Shown here piece by piece: positions 1 to 5,610 of a stretch of 64,000 nucleotides of DNA (positions within the stretch are counted from its first letter, which is position 1; the number at the start of each line of letters is the position of its first letter). The DNA comes from Leucobacter sp. UT-8R-CII-1-4 (GTDB lineage: Bacteria > Actinomycetota > Actinomycetes > Actinomycetales > Microbacteriaceae): positions 1 to 64,000 of the forward strand of contig NZ_JASCRS010000002.1 of NCBI RefSeq assembly GCF_030010235.1. Reading direction: 5' to 3'. The notes below the pieces were generated by a model that was given only the letters and a program-made list of their open reading frames with translations, ran no database searches and was not told the DNA's origin. Position numbers and translations under genes: made by a program.

Positions 1-997
1 CCCCCGACACAAACCGTACATCGGCCTGACGTGTCACCACCACCGGAGCCAAACACGACGCCTCAAGTTTCGACTTCACAAGGTTCGCGAGGGCCACGTT
101 ATACGTCAACTCAGACGCCGGGCCGGGAGTTTCTGCCCAGCCATAATCATCATCTGGATCGAGCACGATACGCGGCCCAGGAGGCGGCACATATTTGATA
201 CCAATCACAATGAACTCAGAGAGGTGGTCTGATTCGGCACGCACCTTGCCGGTTGCTTCGTCGTAGTACGAGGGCAGCTCGACCCAGTCTTCTGCCGAGG
301 ACTCCCGGGTATACAGCTTCAGCGAAGTGAGTTCGATACCCGCGGCCGTCACTTCGTCTTCGTCGACGGCGAAACCGAGCGTGATACCCGGCGTCACCGA
401 GGCCGCCTTTTCGACACCGTGTGGGTCTTTCTCGGTGACCACCTCGGCGGGGAATGCCGTCACTTCATTGCCGTCGGATGCCTGCGCGTCGATACTTATC
501 GCGTCGCTGAAGGCGATGCCGTCAAGCTGAGCCTCGGCAGATACCGCAGCGTCAGGTGTCGCTTCGCTCAACGTCAGCTGCAACTCGTCGCTGATCTTGT
601 AGCCAGAGAACTCGGCACTGACGCCAACACTTCCGGCCTCGATCTGGCCCCCGGTCACTGGCGTCAGTGTGGCTTCGGCAAACGTTTCAGGGGTGTCTGG
701 CTGCTCGGTCTCACGCGCGTGTTCAGCAAGGGCACGCCCCTGGCCGTTTGCCAACGCCAAGACGAGCGACCGCGTTGACCGTCGCGCCGATGCCGTGTGC
801 TGGCGCTGTTCCACCCGCCTCGGTTTCGCAGCGGCCTGCCTCGCCTCACGCACCACCCTCGCGGAACGACTCTGCGATGTTGCCTCCTGCAACGCCTGAG
901 CATTCGGCGGGGCTGCCGTCACTGCCACAGCCGTCACAATGAGCAGGGTGAGCACTCTTGCGGCACACCCTGTAGCCACGACCGTACGCGACCTCAC
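1..997 (-). CDS. Secreted protein, N-terminal part only (amidase-like region; possible RHS/polymorphic-toxin N-terminus)
   Basis: The minus-strand frame is open for about 332 codons and runs off the left edge, so the gene is partial. The proposed GTG start overlaps the upstream gene's TGA by 4 bp (GTGA), which suggests translational coupling. Residues 1-36 look like a signal peptide: RSR, then a hydrophobic VLTLLIVTAVAV, then an Ala-rich end. An Arg-rich linker and a beta-rich region follow. The final ~60 residues have the pattern of an Amidase_3 domain (PRIVLDP, a Glu before LTYNVALANLV, then VVVTRQAD). The usual His of the GHGG motif is replaced by Asp-Asp-Asp, so zinc-dependent amidase activity is doubtful. 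From memory, similar arrangements head large actinobacterial RHS/YD-repeat secreted proteins. That identity is an inference, because the deciding C-terminal part is outside the window. A degenerate peptidoglycan amidase is the main alternative. Confidence 0.6.
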   Translation of the reverse strand, partial: MRSRTVVATGCAARVLTLLIVTAVAVTAAPPNAQALQEATSQSRSARVVREARQAAAKPRRVEQRQHTASARRSTRSLVLALANGQGRALAEHARETEQPDTPETFAEATLTPVTGGQIEAGSVGVSAEFSGYKISDELQLTLSEATPDAAVSAEAQLDGIAFSDAISIDAQASDGNEVTAFPAEVVTEKDPHGVEKAASVTPGITLGFAVDEDEVTAAGIELTSLKLYTRESSAEDWVELPSYYDEATGKVRAESDHLSEFIVIGIKYVPPPGPRIVLDPDDDYGWAETPGPASELTYNVALANLVKSKLEASCLAPVVVTRQADVRFVSG

Positions 998-1797
998 GAG
1001 ACCGGCGTCGCAGACGTTGCGGTGGTCGCTTGCGGTGCTACCTGTTCGGGTGTTCCCGCCGCTGCTTCAGTTGCTGGGCTTGCTGCGGCAAGCTCAGAGA
1101 TCCCGCGTCGCCACAACAACCAGCCACCCGTGCCAAGACCCGCTAACCCGAGCAGCAGCATGAGCCAAAACCACGGCTGACCCGTGAGTGCAAGCAGCGA
1201 CGGATCAATCCGTTTCACACACGCCGCGAGCTGCGCCGCATCAGAAACCCCGCCACCGTCATAATCTTCAAACCCCGTCGCACAGCTACGCGTGCCACAG
1301 ACCACAAACTCGACCCAATCAGCGACACCGTCACCATCAGCGTCTTCAAGACTGTTCGAACAAGCATCCGTGCCACACACCAGACGCTCGGCATAATCGG
1401 GAATCCCGTCACCATCACGGTCCTTTGTCGCGCTCGCACAACTGCGACTGCCACAAGACAGAATCTCAACCCAGTCGGCGATGCCATCGTTGTCGGCATC
1501 TTCAAGCCCCGTCGCGCAGGTCTTGCTACCGCAGATCGCAAGCTCAACGTCGTCGGGAATAGCATCGCCATCGGCGTCGGTAATATTGCCCGCTTGAGAT
1601 GGTGAAGCAAGCGGCAGCAGTGCAGCTGGTGCCGCAGAGACAACCGAAATATTGTTCATAGGAACAACTTCGGCCTCAGATGCAGCAGAAGCAGAAGGAA
1701 CAGCAATCAACGCCGCACCGCAGAACACTGCAACACAAAGCAGCACACCAAGCAGCATTTGGGCGCGCGCGGGCACAGCGAATCGACGTTGATACAC
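994..1797 (-). CDS. Thrombospondin type 3-like repeat protein, membrane-anchored
   Basis: This is a 267-residue exported protein with a GTG start; Met14 is an alternative start that would give a cleaner signal peptide. The hydrophobic signal spans residues 14-38. Residues 74-177 hold four tandem 26-residue units, each with an acidic DxDxDGxxDxxE calcium-loop motif followed by CGxxxC. A degenerate fifth unit with one Cys follows. A single membrane segment lies at about 207-229 (FWLMLLLGLAGLG), then WRR and a short Ala/Thr-rich cytoplasmic tail. The layout predicts a Ca-stabilised, disulfide-pinned extracellular stalk. Thrombospondin type 3 repeats bind calcium; the partner here is unknown. The gene is coupled by a 4-bp overlap to the secreted protein downstream, so the two products probably act together. 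A promoter candidate lies about 95 bases upstream, and GAGGA precedes the start. Confidence 0.8.
   Translation of the reverse strand: MYQRRFAVPARAQMLLGVLLCVAVFCGAALIAVPSASAASEAEVVPMNNISVVSAAPAALLPLASPSQAGNITDADGDAIPDDVELAICGSKTCATGLEDADNDGIADWVEILSCGSRSCASATKDRDGDGIPDYAERLVCGTDACSNSLEDADGDGVADWVEFVVCGTRSCATGFEDYDGGGVSDAAQLAACVKRIDPSLLALTGQPWFWLMLLLGLAGLGTGGWLLWRRGISELAAASPATEAAAGTPEQVAPQATTATSATPVS
1267..1578 (-). repeat. Four tandem 78-bp repeats encoding 26-residue DxDxDG/CGxxxC units
   Basis: The units encode residues 74-99, 100-125, 126-151 and 152-177 of the TSP3-like protein. Each contains an acidic loop and a CGxxxC pair. A fifth, decayed unit follows at residues 178-198. Confidence 0.85.
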
Positions 1798-2231: not shown

Positions 2232-3746
2232 TTACTGCGCAGCACGCTCGAGCACGAGCTCGCGCACGCGGGCGGCATCAGCCTGTCCGCGCATGGCCTT
2301 CATCACGGCACCGATCACCGCGCCGGCTGCTTGCACCTTACCGTCGCGAATCTTCTCAAGCACGTCTGGCTGCTGCGCGAGCGCAGCGTCAATCGCCTCG
2401 ATCAGCGGGCCGTCGTCTGAAACGATCGCAAGGCCGCGGGCCTCAACAATCTCAGCGGCAGTACCCTCACCATCGATGACGCCCTGGAGCACCTGACGCG
2501 CGAGCTTGTCGTTCAGCGTGCCAGCGTCGACCAGCTCAACCACAGAGAGAATCTGCGCGGGAGTGATCAGCTCAGCAGGAACCGCATCGCGCTCGTTAGC
2601 GATACGGGCGATTTCACCGGTCCACCACTTACGGGCAGCCTGCGGCGCTACGCCAGCGGCAACGGTGGTCTCGATCTCGTTCACGAGACCAGCGTTCACC
2701 ACGTCGCGGAACTCAAGCGGCGAGAAGCCCCACTCGCTCATCAGGCGACGACGACGAAGCGTAGGGTGCTCTGGCAGACCAGCGCGCAGCTCTTCAACCA
2801 GTTCACGCGAAGGTGTGAGCGGAGCCAAATCTGGCTCTGGGAAGTAACGGTAATCGTCAGCGTCGCTCTTCGGACGGCCCGGTGAAGTCTCACCGGTGTC
2901 TTCGTGCCAGTGACGAGTCTCCTGAGTAATCGAGCCGCCCTCAGCCAAGATCGCAGCCTGACGCTGAATCTCGAAACGAACCGCACGCTCAATAGAACGC
3001 AGCGAGTTCACGTTCTTCGTCTCAGTACGAGTGCCGAGCACGCTCATGCCGGCATCTTCGTTGCCGCGTGGGCGCAGCGAAACGTTCGCGTCACAGCGCA
3101 GGTTACCGCGCTCCATGCGTGCGTCAGAGATACCGAGCGCGGTGACAATCTCACGAATCGTCGCAACGTATGCCGCAGCGATTTCAGGAGTGTCGGCCTC
3201 GCCACCAAAGATTGGTCGGGTCACGATTTCAACGAGTGGCACACCCGCACGGTTGTAATCAACAAGCGAGTATTCAGCACCCTGAATACGACCAGTCGAG
3301 CCACCAACGTGGTTCAGCTTGCCAGCGTCTTCTTCCATGTGCGCGCGCTCGATTGGCACGTGCACCACACGACCTGACTCGAGCTCAATCTCGACCGATC
3401 CATCGTGCGCGATCGGATCATCAAACTGTGAGATCTGGTAGTTCTTCGCCATGTCTGGGTAGAAGTAGTTCTTGCGCGCGAAGCCAGAAACCTCTGCGAT
3501 TTCGCAACCCAGCGCGAGACCAAGGCGAATCGAGTAACGCACTGCCTGATCGTTTACGACCGGAAGCGCTCCGGGCAACCCGAGGCAAACCGGAGTGAGG
3601 TTCGTGTTTGGCTCGCTACCGAACACGTTCGGCGCTGAGCTGAACATCTTGGTTTTGGTGTTGAGTTCAACGTGCACCTCAAGACCGATCACCGGTTCAA
3701 AAAGTTCGAGTGCTTTCTCAAACGACATCAACTTGGTTTTCGCCAT
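2232..3746 (-). CDS. gatB: Asp-tRNA(Asn)/Glu-tRNA(Gln) amidotransferase subunit B
   Basis: GatB, 504 residues, the normal length. It phosphorylates the misacylated Glu-tRNAGln (or Asp-tRNAAsn) and receives ammonia channelled from GatA to produce Gln-tRNAGln. Visible signatures are the N-terminal [37 protein letters not shown], and a C-terminal YqeY/tRNA-binding tail with [16 protein letters not shown]. The start codon overlaps the gatA stop by one base. It is the last gene of gatC-gatA-gatB and is followed by a strong terminator. Actinobacteria generally lack GlnRS and depend on this route, so the gene is expected to be essential. Confidence 0.98.
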
Positions 3747-5290
3747 TAGTTCGCCGCCTTTCGTGCGAGAGCATCTGCAAAGGAGGGCACCTGCGACCAG
3801 AACGGCTTGCCGTCACGCTCGGTGATCAGCTGTTCAATAGCTGCGCCAGCCTGGTAGAGGCGTGCGTCCTCGTATGCAGGCGCGAGCAGCTGCAAGCCAA
3901 CTGGCAGGCCGTCTTCTGCTGCGGTGCCGATTGGCAAGCTGAGGCCAGGAATACCAGCGAGGTTCGCCGGAATTGTGGTGGCATCGTTCAGATAGTCCTG
4001 CATCGGGTCACTGCCATGAGTGCCGAGCTGCCAGGCCGTGGTTGGCGCGGTTGGCGAAGCGATCACGTCAACTTGAGCAAACGCTGCCGAGAAGTCACGC
4101 TGGATCAGCGTACGCACCTTCTGCGCGCTGCCGTAGTAGGCGTCATAGTAGCCAGCCGAAAGAGCGTAAGTGCCGAGAATAATACGACGCTTTACTTCTG
4201 CACCAAAACCAACCTCACGGGTCTGGCTCATCACGTTCTCGACCGTGCCGTTACCCTCTGGGGTGACACGCAGGCCGAAACGCACCGAGTCATATTTTGC
4301 GAGGTTACTCGATGCTTCTGCAGGCAGAATCAGGTAGTAAGCAGCAACAGCGTACTCAAAGTGCGGTGCGTCGATCTCAACGATTTCGGCGCCCTGCGCG
4401 GTAAGCAGCGCGAGCGACTCTTCGAAGCGGGCCTTGACCCCTGGCTGCACACCCTCAAGCATGAGCTGTTTCACGACGCCAACGCGCAGACCTTTGAGGC
4501 TGCCACCGGCAGCACCCGCACGGGCAGCAGCGGCCATTGACGGCCACTCGTGGCGCAGAGAGGTGGAGTCGTGATGGTCGTGACCTGCGATGACATCGTG
4601 CAGCAGCGCGGTATCGAGCACGGTACGAGCGACGGGGCCGACTTGGTCGAGCGAAGATGCGAGCGCAATCGCACCGTAGCGGCTCACACCACCGTACGTG
4701 GGCTTTGCACCGACGGTGCCGGTGAGGGCTGCTGGCTGTCGGATCGAGCCGCCGGTGTCGCTGCCGAGCGCGAGTGGCGCTTCGAATGCGGCCACAGCGG
4801 TTGCCGAGCCACCGCCCGAACCGCCCGGCACACGGTCGAGCGCCCAGGGGTTCAGGGTTGGGCCGTAGGCCGAATTCTCGGTCGAAGAGCCCATTGCGAA
4901 CTCATCCATATTGGTCTTGCCAATGTTTACGAGTCCGGCTGCGCGCGCCTTGGCAACTACTGTCGCATCAAACGGCGACATGTAGCCCTCAAGAATCTTC
5001 GAACCCGAAGTCGACGGCATGTCGGTGGTAACCAGCACGTCTTTGACGGCGAGCGGCACACCGGCGAGCTCGCCGAGGTTCTCACCAGCCGCACGACGCT
5101 CGTCAATCTTGCGTGCTGCGTCGAGTGAGGCTTCAGCGTTTGTTACGAGGAAGGCGTTCAGTTCGCCGTCGACCTCGCTGATGCGATCAAGCTGGGCCTT
5201 GGCGGCGTCAACAGCCGAAACTTCGCCTGAGATGAGGGCCGCCGAGAGTTCGGCGGCGGTGAGCGTAATCAAGTCGTTGTTCGCGGTCAT
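3746..5290 (-). CDS. gatA: Asp-tRNA(Asn)/Glu-tRNA(Gln) amidotransferase subunit A
   Basis: GatA, 514 residues, an amidase-signature glutaminase that frees ammonia from glutamine for GatB. The Ser-cisSer-Lys triad is visible as Lys83 ([10 protein letters not shown]), Ser158 ([10 protein letters not shown]) and Ser182 ([12 protein letters not shown]). These are each offset by four from the S. aureus enzyme numbering as I recall it. The start abuts gatC (the stop and start regions share a base) and the stop abuts gatB, so the three subunits are translated together. Confidence 0.98.
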
Positions 5291-5610
5291 TACTGCTCCT
5301 CTCCAAGGATCGAAGAAACACGGAACATACCGTCGGCTACCTCTGGCGCGTTTTCAAGCGCCTGATCGAGGGTGAGCACGTCGGCAATCTCGTCGGGACG
5401 AGTGACGTTGTTGATCGGAAGGGGGTGGCTAGTGGCCGGGACGTCGTCGCTTGCCACCTCGCTGACCTTCGCAATATTGTGCAGGATCGAGTCGAGGTCA
5501 CGACTCAGGGTCGTAATCTCGTCTGCGGTGAGGGCAATTCGGGCCAGATCGGCAAGATGTTCTACGGTTTCAACCGTGATCTCGCCGTTCGCTCCACTGG
5601 TTTCAGACAT
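5290..5610 (-). CDS. gatC: Asp-tRNA(Asn)/Glu-tRNA(Gln) amidotransferase subunit C
   Basis: GatC, 106 residues, the small belt-like subunit that wraps GatA and GatB and stabilises the complex. Family features are [16 protein letters not shown] near the N-terminus, [12 protein letters not shown], and a C-terminal LRxD-like region ending in [10 protein letters not shown]. The first gene of the gat trio, it follows tag after a 70-base gap, which is the most likely place for an internal promoter. Confidence 0.96.

Follow-up and report, generated by a model that had tools for sequence, protein, structure and literature searches.

A predicted Rhs toxin locus with a sortase-type stalk partner, cut by a contig edge in Leucobacter

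At the very start of a contig of Leucobacter sp. UT-8R-CII-1-4, two overlapping genes are read on the reverse strand: one encodes a small secreted repeat protein with a C-terminal membrane segment, the other a secreted protein that runs off the end of the assembly. What does this second gene encode in full, and what would a repeat protein of this kind do at its side? The window, that is the whole stretch of DNA analysed, comprises bases 1-64000 (64,000 nucleotides) of contig C3, in a host genome of 3.0 Mb and nine contigs; because it begins at base 1 of the contig, the truncation of the second gene is an assembly edge. In the reading that we prefer, and to which we give a probability of roughly 0.7, the window holds the 5' end of a two-gene locus for an Rhs/YD-repeat polymorphic toxin, which would be exported by Sec and displayed at the wall together with a sorted stalk partner.

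The gene pair at the contig edge

The features of the pair are collected in Table 1, with the start codons of rhs genes taken, here and in relatives, as the nearest in-frame ones. An earlier note on this DNA had described a TSP3-like gene coupled to a secreted frame through a GTGA overlap; both frames are present, and the junction recurs in relatives. A chance overlap of open reading frames was considered and rejected: the pair is conserved, recurring once more in the host genome, in a same-genus relative and at 20 other loci of the family, and all 22 loci with strong matches are linked.

Table 1. Features of the gene pair in window coordinates
Feature	Position	Strand	Basis or remark
Stalk gene, 267 aa: secreted, TSP3-like, paired cysteines, C-terminal LALTG sorting-type signal	994..1797	-	ORF reading
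TSP3-like acidic repeats (aa 74-193)	1219..1578	-	Asp and Cys repeat columns invariant in all 22 aligned stalks
LALTG motif (aa 202-206), class E sortase type	1180..1194	-	
Hydrophobic segment (~aa 209-229) followed by Arg residues, read as membrane part of the sorting signal	1111..1173	-	
GTGA overlap of stalk stop and rhs start	994..997	-	same kind of junction in relatives
rhs gene, 5' part, 332 aa, open at the contig edge	2..997	-	
Order within the rhs part: signal peptide, Arg-rich linker, beta domain, start of Amidase_3-like domain	2..997	-	
Conserved beta domain, 158 profile positions, ending in invariant HLS; candidate ZU5/GPS-like	200..676	-	
HLS motif	218..226	-	in 23/23 aligned loci
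Amidase_3-like domain, degenerate, start only (the contig ends within it); LDPDDD where the first zinc His would stand	2..196	-	

The pair adjoins gatB, gatA and gatC (named from their translations), which lie on the same strand at window positions 2232-5610; a GC-poorer gap of about 430 bases separates gatB from the stalk gene. The AT-richer setting in which the earlier note saw a possible sign of acquisition is confined to this gap (positions 1798-2231), which has a GC content of 0.498 against 0.59 in the window; the two genes themselves, at 0.591 and 0.622, do not share it.

The stalk protein consists of a signal peptide, five acidic motifs of the D-x-D type alternating with four CGxxxC pairs, and a single C-terminal membrane segment. 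The Pfam families TSP3_bac and TSP_3 score 18.3 and 16.8 bits, below the cut-off of 25, and it is for this reason that the repeats are called TSP3-like and no more; from their make-up they would be expected to bind calcium. LAxTG with a following membrane segment is found in 22 of 23 stalks of the family, namely those of the window and of its sister copy on contig C7, 19 of the 20 separately encoded stalks of other loci, and a stalk fused to its partner (L087); it is absent from the stalk of L082, and also from that of G633, a genome of another family. Seven of 22 stalks match the NCBI family of LAVTG sortase-dependent proteins (best value 7.2e-5). The membrane segment on which the earlier note had based a membrane-anchored stalk is thus there, and the kind of anchor changes: being placed behind LALTG, the segment looks like part of a sortase signal. 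LAXTG is used by class E sortases in actinobacteria (PMC5148588, in excerpt), and in the host genome two sortases score above cut-off, one of class E and one of class C, the former on contig C4 (G000:C4; 197.9 bits against a cut-off of 160). The signal together with this sortase leads us to read the 'membrane stalk' as wall-anchored; it is probably anchored by sortase, with covalent attachment to the wall predicted. The class C sortase adjoins an LPLTG surface protein that resembles a pilin (L095:1324-3373, on G000:C1).

Intact relatives, linkage and distribution

An intact pair is found in the same-genus relative G041, with a stalk of 239 aa (L006:9225-9944) and an Rhs protein of 2139 aa (P0001, L006:9941-16360), whose genes share GTGA as in the window. 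In a Pfam profile scan P0001 shows 24 RHS_repeat stretches (E-value 2.4e-151), and in addition DUF6531 (43 bits, cut-off 24.1), Rhs_assc_core (46.8 bits, cut-off 32.5) and TEN_YD-shell (72.6 bits, cut-off 50); of a teneurin-like make-up, FN-plug and NHL are absent among its five Pfam matches. The RHS/YD identity that the earlier note had proposed from resemblance is supported by these repeats, DUF6531 and the Rhs core.

The host genome itself contains a second pair, at the start of contig C7 and likewise cut. Contig C8 consists over all its 4476 bases of an RHS core, open over 1492 aa, with 63% identity to the relative and a score of 48.5 bits for DUF6531, and the ends of contigs C6 and C7 present one common core end with two different tips. 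With the contigs read one by one, the simplest reading is a genome with two or more rhs loci, the assembly having broken at their near-identical cores. YD repeats, an RHS core, variable tips and immunity-like genes, all of which the earlier note had looked to beyond the contig edge, are found in the intact relative and on separate contigs of the host genome. It is on these that the RHS identity of the window gene rests, since the gene is cut at the contig edge before any YD repeats, and a tip would lie beyond the window.

Two profiles, one of the Rhs N-terminus (A2) and one of the stalk (A1), were each searched in 398 genomes of the family. The former matches 19 genomes and the latter 18, and the strong set is the same 17 genomes for both; weak additional matches come from G112 and G355 (about 7e-4) and from G286 (3e-4). 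Each profile yields 22 strong loci, and in all 22 the stalk and the Rhs N-terminus are adjacent and on the same strand, so that the linkage raised as a question in the earlier note is general among them. One of these pairs is fused in frame (L087, G360:C75), stalk and Rhs forming a single open frame of 2384 aa; in it an LAETG anchor is kept between the two parts and is followed by the Rhs signal peptide inside the frame. Among the 20 loci with separate stalks, the rhs start overlaps the stalk stop in 16 (as GTGA, ATGA or TGATG) and in L089, L090, L092 and L094 it follows the first base of the stop codon at a distance of 7-8 bases. Over 20 loci, the distances among stalks correlate with those among Rhs N-termini, with a Pearson coefficient of 0.88, reached by 0 of 2000 permutations, and a Spearman coefficient of only 0.56; such a correlation can come from the inheritance of a linked pair without physical contact.

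DUF6531 occurs in 34 of 299 family genomes, 12 of them among the 17 with the pair and 22 outside; the latter, taken as part of the 398-genome sample without a strong match, indicate that the stalk is tied to this subfamily and not to Rhs genes generally. Within the genus, the N-terminus is matched in 2 of 54 genomes, the host genome included, and this patchy distribution (17/398 in the family, 2/54 in the genus) fits a putative acquired module. A search for the beta domain in 396 genomes of the order gave five matches, three of which (G468, G590 and G716, from another family of the order) have Rhs proteins with a related beta domain and an amidase-like region (L125, L123 and L124, respectively). 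Of the three, G590 and G716 retain HLS whereas G468 has lost it; upstream of rhs no stalk gene was seen in any of them, and the stalk is thus not required for every protein with this N-terminus. The stalk search over the order matches 25 of 396 genomes, all below 25 bits except G000, G437 and G633; the strong match in G633, outside the family, lies at a contig end, lacks LAxTG and leaves no room for an Rhs gene.

Carriage by plasmids or viruses was considered as well and is without support in the scans of plasmid records and viral_contigs. Among 72,556 plasmid records the stalk matches a single one, weakly, from Haloarcula. The Rhs query matches 1454 plasmid records, all below 60% identity, and the best 15 of these 1454 matches start at residue 463 or later, outside the N-terminus. 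With the amidase-like profile, the scan of viral_contigs likewise yielded no confirmed relative.

Domains of the Rhs protein, its tips and the genes downstream

The part of the rhs gene in the window, like the same part of the sister copy on C7, has no Pfam match, and its domains are recognised through relatives. The Arg-rich linker noted earlier is present in both copies of the host genome, of which it is largely an insertion; being mostly gapped in the other 21 loci, it does not hold as a general feature. A weak model of the beta domain alone, built from two sequences (pLDDT 62.6; a two-sequence model of the whole N-terminus gave pLDDT 35), puts the HLS motif immediately ahead of the last strand. 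A scissile motif of the HxS type, in a like position ahead of the last strand, marks the autoproteolytic domains of the GPS/ZU5 kind. N-terminal ZU5 autopeptidases have been described in RHS toxins (PMC3482391, in excerpt). The beta domain has no convincing Pfam family (best E-value 0.12) and no PDB sequence match (best E-value 0.15), and scores 18 bits against PGF_pre_PGF, below the cut-off of 28; its model finds no PDB fold with an E-value below 0.001 in Foldseek (best 0.24), a weak test because the model rests on two sequences. As Pfam, PDB sequences and PDB folds all gave no support for homology to ZU5 or GPS, the beta domain is only suspected to be an autocleavage domain of this type, in which case the chain would be cut at HLS.

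The following domain was compared with Amidase_3 (PF01520) in the relatives, the window holding its start only; 13 of 21 match in Pfam with E-values of up to 1, and L006 reaches 30.2 bits against a cut-off of 27. By profile against the PDB, the amidase-like region matches 4rn7 (E-value 4.2e-11) and 1jwq (2.8e-7). The first of the two positions that we take to be zinc-binding His in Amidase_3 is D or N in all 22 rows that reach this column, that of the window among them; the second is A or G in 20 of 21 loci by pattern and A in L081 by eye, the window being cut before it. Two Glu columns are invariant. The amidase-like region without zinc His of the earlier note is thereby found again in the relatives, and with both His replaced the domain is a fold relative of Amidase_3 and not an active amidase. 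The dead fold probably holds peptidoglycan, a role that suits its place in the protein and that has been proposed for the LysM domains of Streptococcus suis WapA (PMC12704120, in excerpt).

Behind the amidase-like domain, the motif [DE]P[VIF]SxxTGN, a known context of Rhs N-terminal cleavage, is found in 21 of 21 loci; S. suis WapA is cut at a similar site before DUF6531 (excerpt of PMC12704120), and a cut before DUF6531 may be expected here. All 21 loci then continue with 18-30 YD-like motifs each, against a mean of about 1 in shuffled sequences (by motif count in all 21, with a full profile scan for YD/RHS repeats in P0001). In L080 (G076:C1) the rhs frame is broken within the YD repeats into two pieces in different frames.

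The C-terminal tips differ widely. Toxin or enzyme families are recognised in two loci, Ntox24 in L082 and HNH in L089, and the tips of the other 19 loci and of the two contig ends of the host genome match no toxin or enzyme family in Pfam, the latter two having no Pfam match of any kind. Hydrophobic tips, their segments counted with a plain hydropathy window, occur at both of these contig ends and in several relatives. Those of C6, C7 and L006 are interrelated (BLAST E-values 1e-20 to 2e-7), as are the two-TM proteins downstream of them (5e-23 to 0.006), E-values that are generous because they were obtained without composition correction or masking. In L075, L076, L078, L079, L083 and L087, two or more hydrophobic segments occur in the tip, which matches no toxin or enzyme family in Pfam, and in all six a two-TM protein is encoded at most 620 bases downstream of rhs; its gene starts no more than 15 bases from the rhs stop in L076, L078, L079 and L083, and in L087 a one-TM protein precedes the two-TM ones. 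The first downstream gene of L082, L086, L088 and L094 encodes a protein without TM segments. Exceptions are L090, which has no hydrophobic tip segments yet a four-TM neighbour, and L089, whose HNH tip also has hydrophobic segments; the remaining loci gave an ambiguous picture or ended before the neighbouring genes. This contrast between tips and their neighbours fits loosely with membrane-active tips and membrane immunity. As the tips of the host genome are hydrophobic and are followed by two-helix membrane proteins, the tips probably act as toxins that damage membranes, and the proteins behind them as the matching membrane immunity. Rhs toxins that form pores are known, Tse5 being one (PMC10684867, in excerpt).

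Near the point where the tips diverge, mostly 70-100 aa past the core, an Arg-His pair recurs in 18 of 23 cases (21 loci and the two contig ends; a loose pattern), possibly a pre-toxin signature. By eye, a GYTT motif is common to the membrane neighbours downstream of rhs in L076, L078, L081, L083 and L087, which perhaps form one immunity family. Downstream of the rhs ends of the host genome follow several two-TM proteins along with displaced pieces of RHS core and orphan tips such as L025:13177-13791, at the right end of C7 (L025:12536-16482) and at the end of C6 (L024:12387-13685); as read from sequence, this is an orphan array of toxin and immunity genes.

Display of the toxin, alternatives and known systems

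The gene pair, its coupling and linkage, the signals, the domains and the variety of tips are read off the sequences; Sec export, anchoring, hold on peptidoglycan, contact of stalk and Rhs protein, cleavage and killing are predicted from them. The preferred reading of the locus would work as follows. The first gene would provide a small secreted stalk of TSP3-like repeats of the calcium- and disulfide-stabilised type, with LALTG as the point at which a class E sortase probably attaches it to the wall. The second, translationally coupled to it, would provide a giant protein for Sec export, composed in order of the beta domain ending in HLS, the catalytically dead amidase-like domain, a cocoon of YD repeats and the variable C-terminal tip. 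The amidase-like domain probably grips peptidoglycan, and the Rhs cocoon is probably docked or held in position by the stalk, within the wall or beyond it, where the cocoon would present its enclosed tip to a touching cell. This stalk would be the display or release platform of the earlier note, a role that is plausible. The cell to be killed would be a neighbouring bacterium, a target that we favour because the tips adjoin genes of the immunity type. A more elaborate version, which we put forward tentatively and regard as possible though doubtful, makes the locus a Gram-positive Rhs launcher, in which the sortase-E-anchored, calcium-stiffened stalk and the dead amidase would together clamp the cocoon to the wall, and self-cleavage at the invariant HLS would part it from the anchored base, for release or for hand-over to the touching cell.

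The same pair could instead be a surface adhesion module, both of whose proteins attach to other cells or to surfaces, with variable tips that have no use as toxins. The stalk repeats do resemble, far below cut-off, the cell-cohesion and gliding proteins MtsD and CglD, and YD proteins can be adhesins, teneurins for example (PMC13018210, in excerpt); adhesion is nonetheless an unlikely explanation of a locus type with HNH and Ntox24 tips, with different tips on one common core end on two contigs of a single genome, and with orphan tips and core fragments downstream. Alternatively, the stalk could serve its producer, by shielding the producer's own wall or membrane from the toxin or by pacing export, and have no role in display. 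That it is encoded first, is secreted and of the wall type, and stays conserved while the tips vary, would suit such a function. Immunity, however, usually follows the tip, and here separate genes are found downstream of the tips; the stalk moreover tracks the conserved N-terminus in the correlation of stalk and N-terminal distances, and is in one case fused in frame to it, so that a service to the producer alone appears quite improbable.

A third view takes the product of the secreted frame for an ordinary peptidoglycan amidase or a wall-maintenance protein with a surface protein as its neighbour, and draws on the match to the Amidase_3 fold. It is rejected as extremely unlikely: neither zinc His is retained in any of the 21 loci read, YD-like repeats follow in all 21 (with the profile scan of P0001), and no short ordinary amidase without YD repeats, the finding that would have spoken against the earlier note, was encountered among them. 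Little is understood of the way in which Gram-positive bacteria keep giant Rhs toxins within a thick wall and pass on their tips, and a closely linked partner of the wall-sorted type would be a concrete component of Rhs display; the partnership may show how such bacteria display these toxins against neighbours. The loci also combine membrane-type and enzyme tips with one delivery family and a common core.

Among known systems, WapA of Bacillus subtilis represents the WapA-type Rhs toxins of the Bacillota. The comparison can be drawn most closely with S. suis, where the WapA-CT1 locus carries a SecF-like protein and SrtB, and where the sortase of the locus binds the N-terminal wall-binding part of WapA and is needed for killing (PMC12704120, in excerpt, as for all that follows on this type). 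Shared with the WapA type are a giant YD protein, Sec-exported (as predicted here) in a Gram-positive, with an N-terminal wall-binding part and a variable C-terminal toxin, a similar cleavage-site sequence before DUF6531, and a wall-sorting partner in the locus that is matched to the Rhs type. The two differ in the wall-binding part, which here would be the dead amidase fold and the HLS beta domain and in WapA is LysM/DNRLRE, in the partner, which here is a stalk of the sortase-substrate type and in WapA a sortase or SecF-like protein, and in the YD shell, of which there is apparently one here and two in WapA. With the ZU5-autopeptidase Rhs toxins (PMC3482391), the locus has in common an N-terminal domain suspected to cleave itself, central RHS repeats and exchangeable tips; here, however, ZU5 homology is unconfirmed and the SpvB or beta-propeller partners are not seen, and the excerpt of that paper mentions no stalk partner, neither TSP3 nor thrombospondin. 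In the open-licence literature, covered by titles and the beginnings of abstracts, none of the matches listed dealt with a TSP3 or LAxTG protein as the partner of an Rhs toxin. The stalk for its part is built like substrates of class E sortases such as the chaplins (excerpt of PMC5148588), with LAxTG, a hydrophobic segment, basic residues and a class E sortase in the genome; unlike chaplins, its body consists of TSP3-like repeats and it is encoded with an Rhs gene. Tse5 (excerpt of PMC10684867) likewise combines an Rhs cocoon with a tip of the membrane-active type, a likeness by type; in contrast to the locus described here, it is delivered by a T6SS in a Gram-negative.
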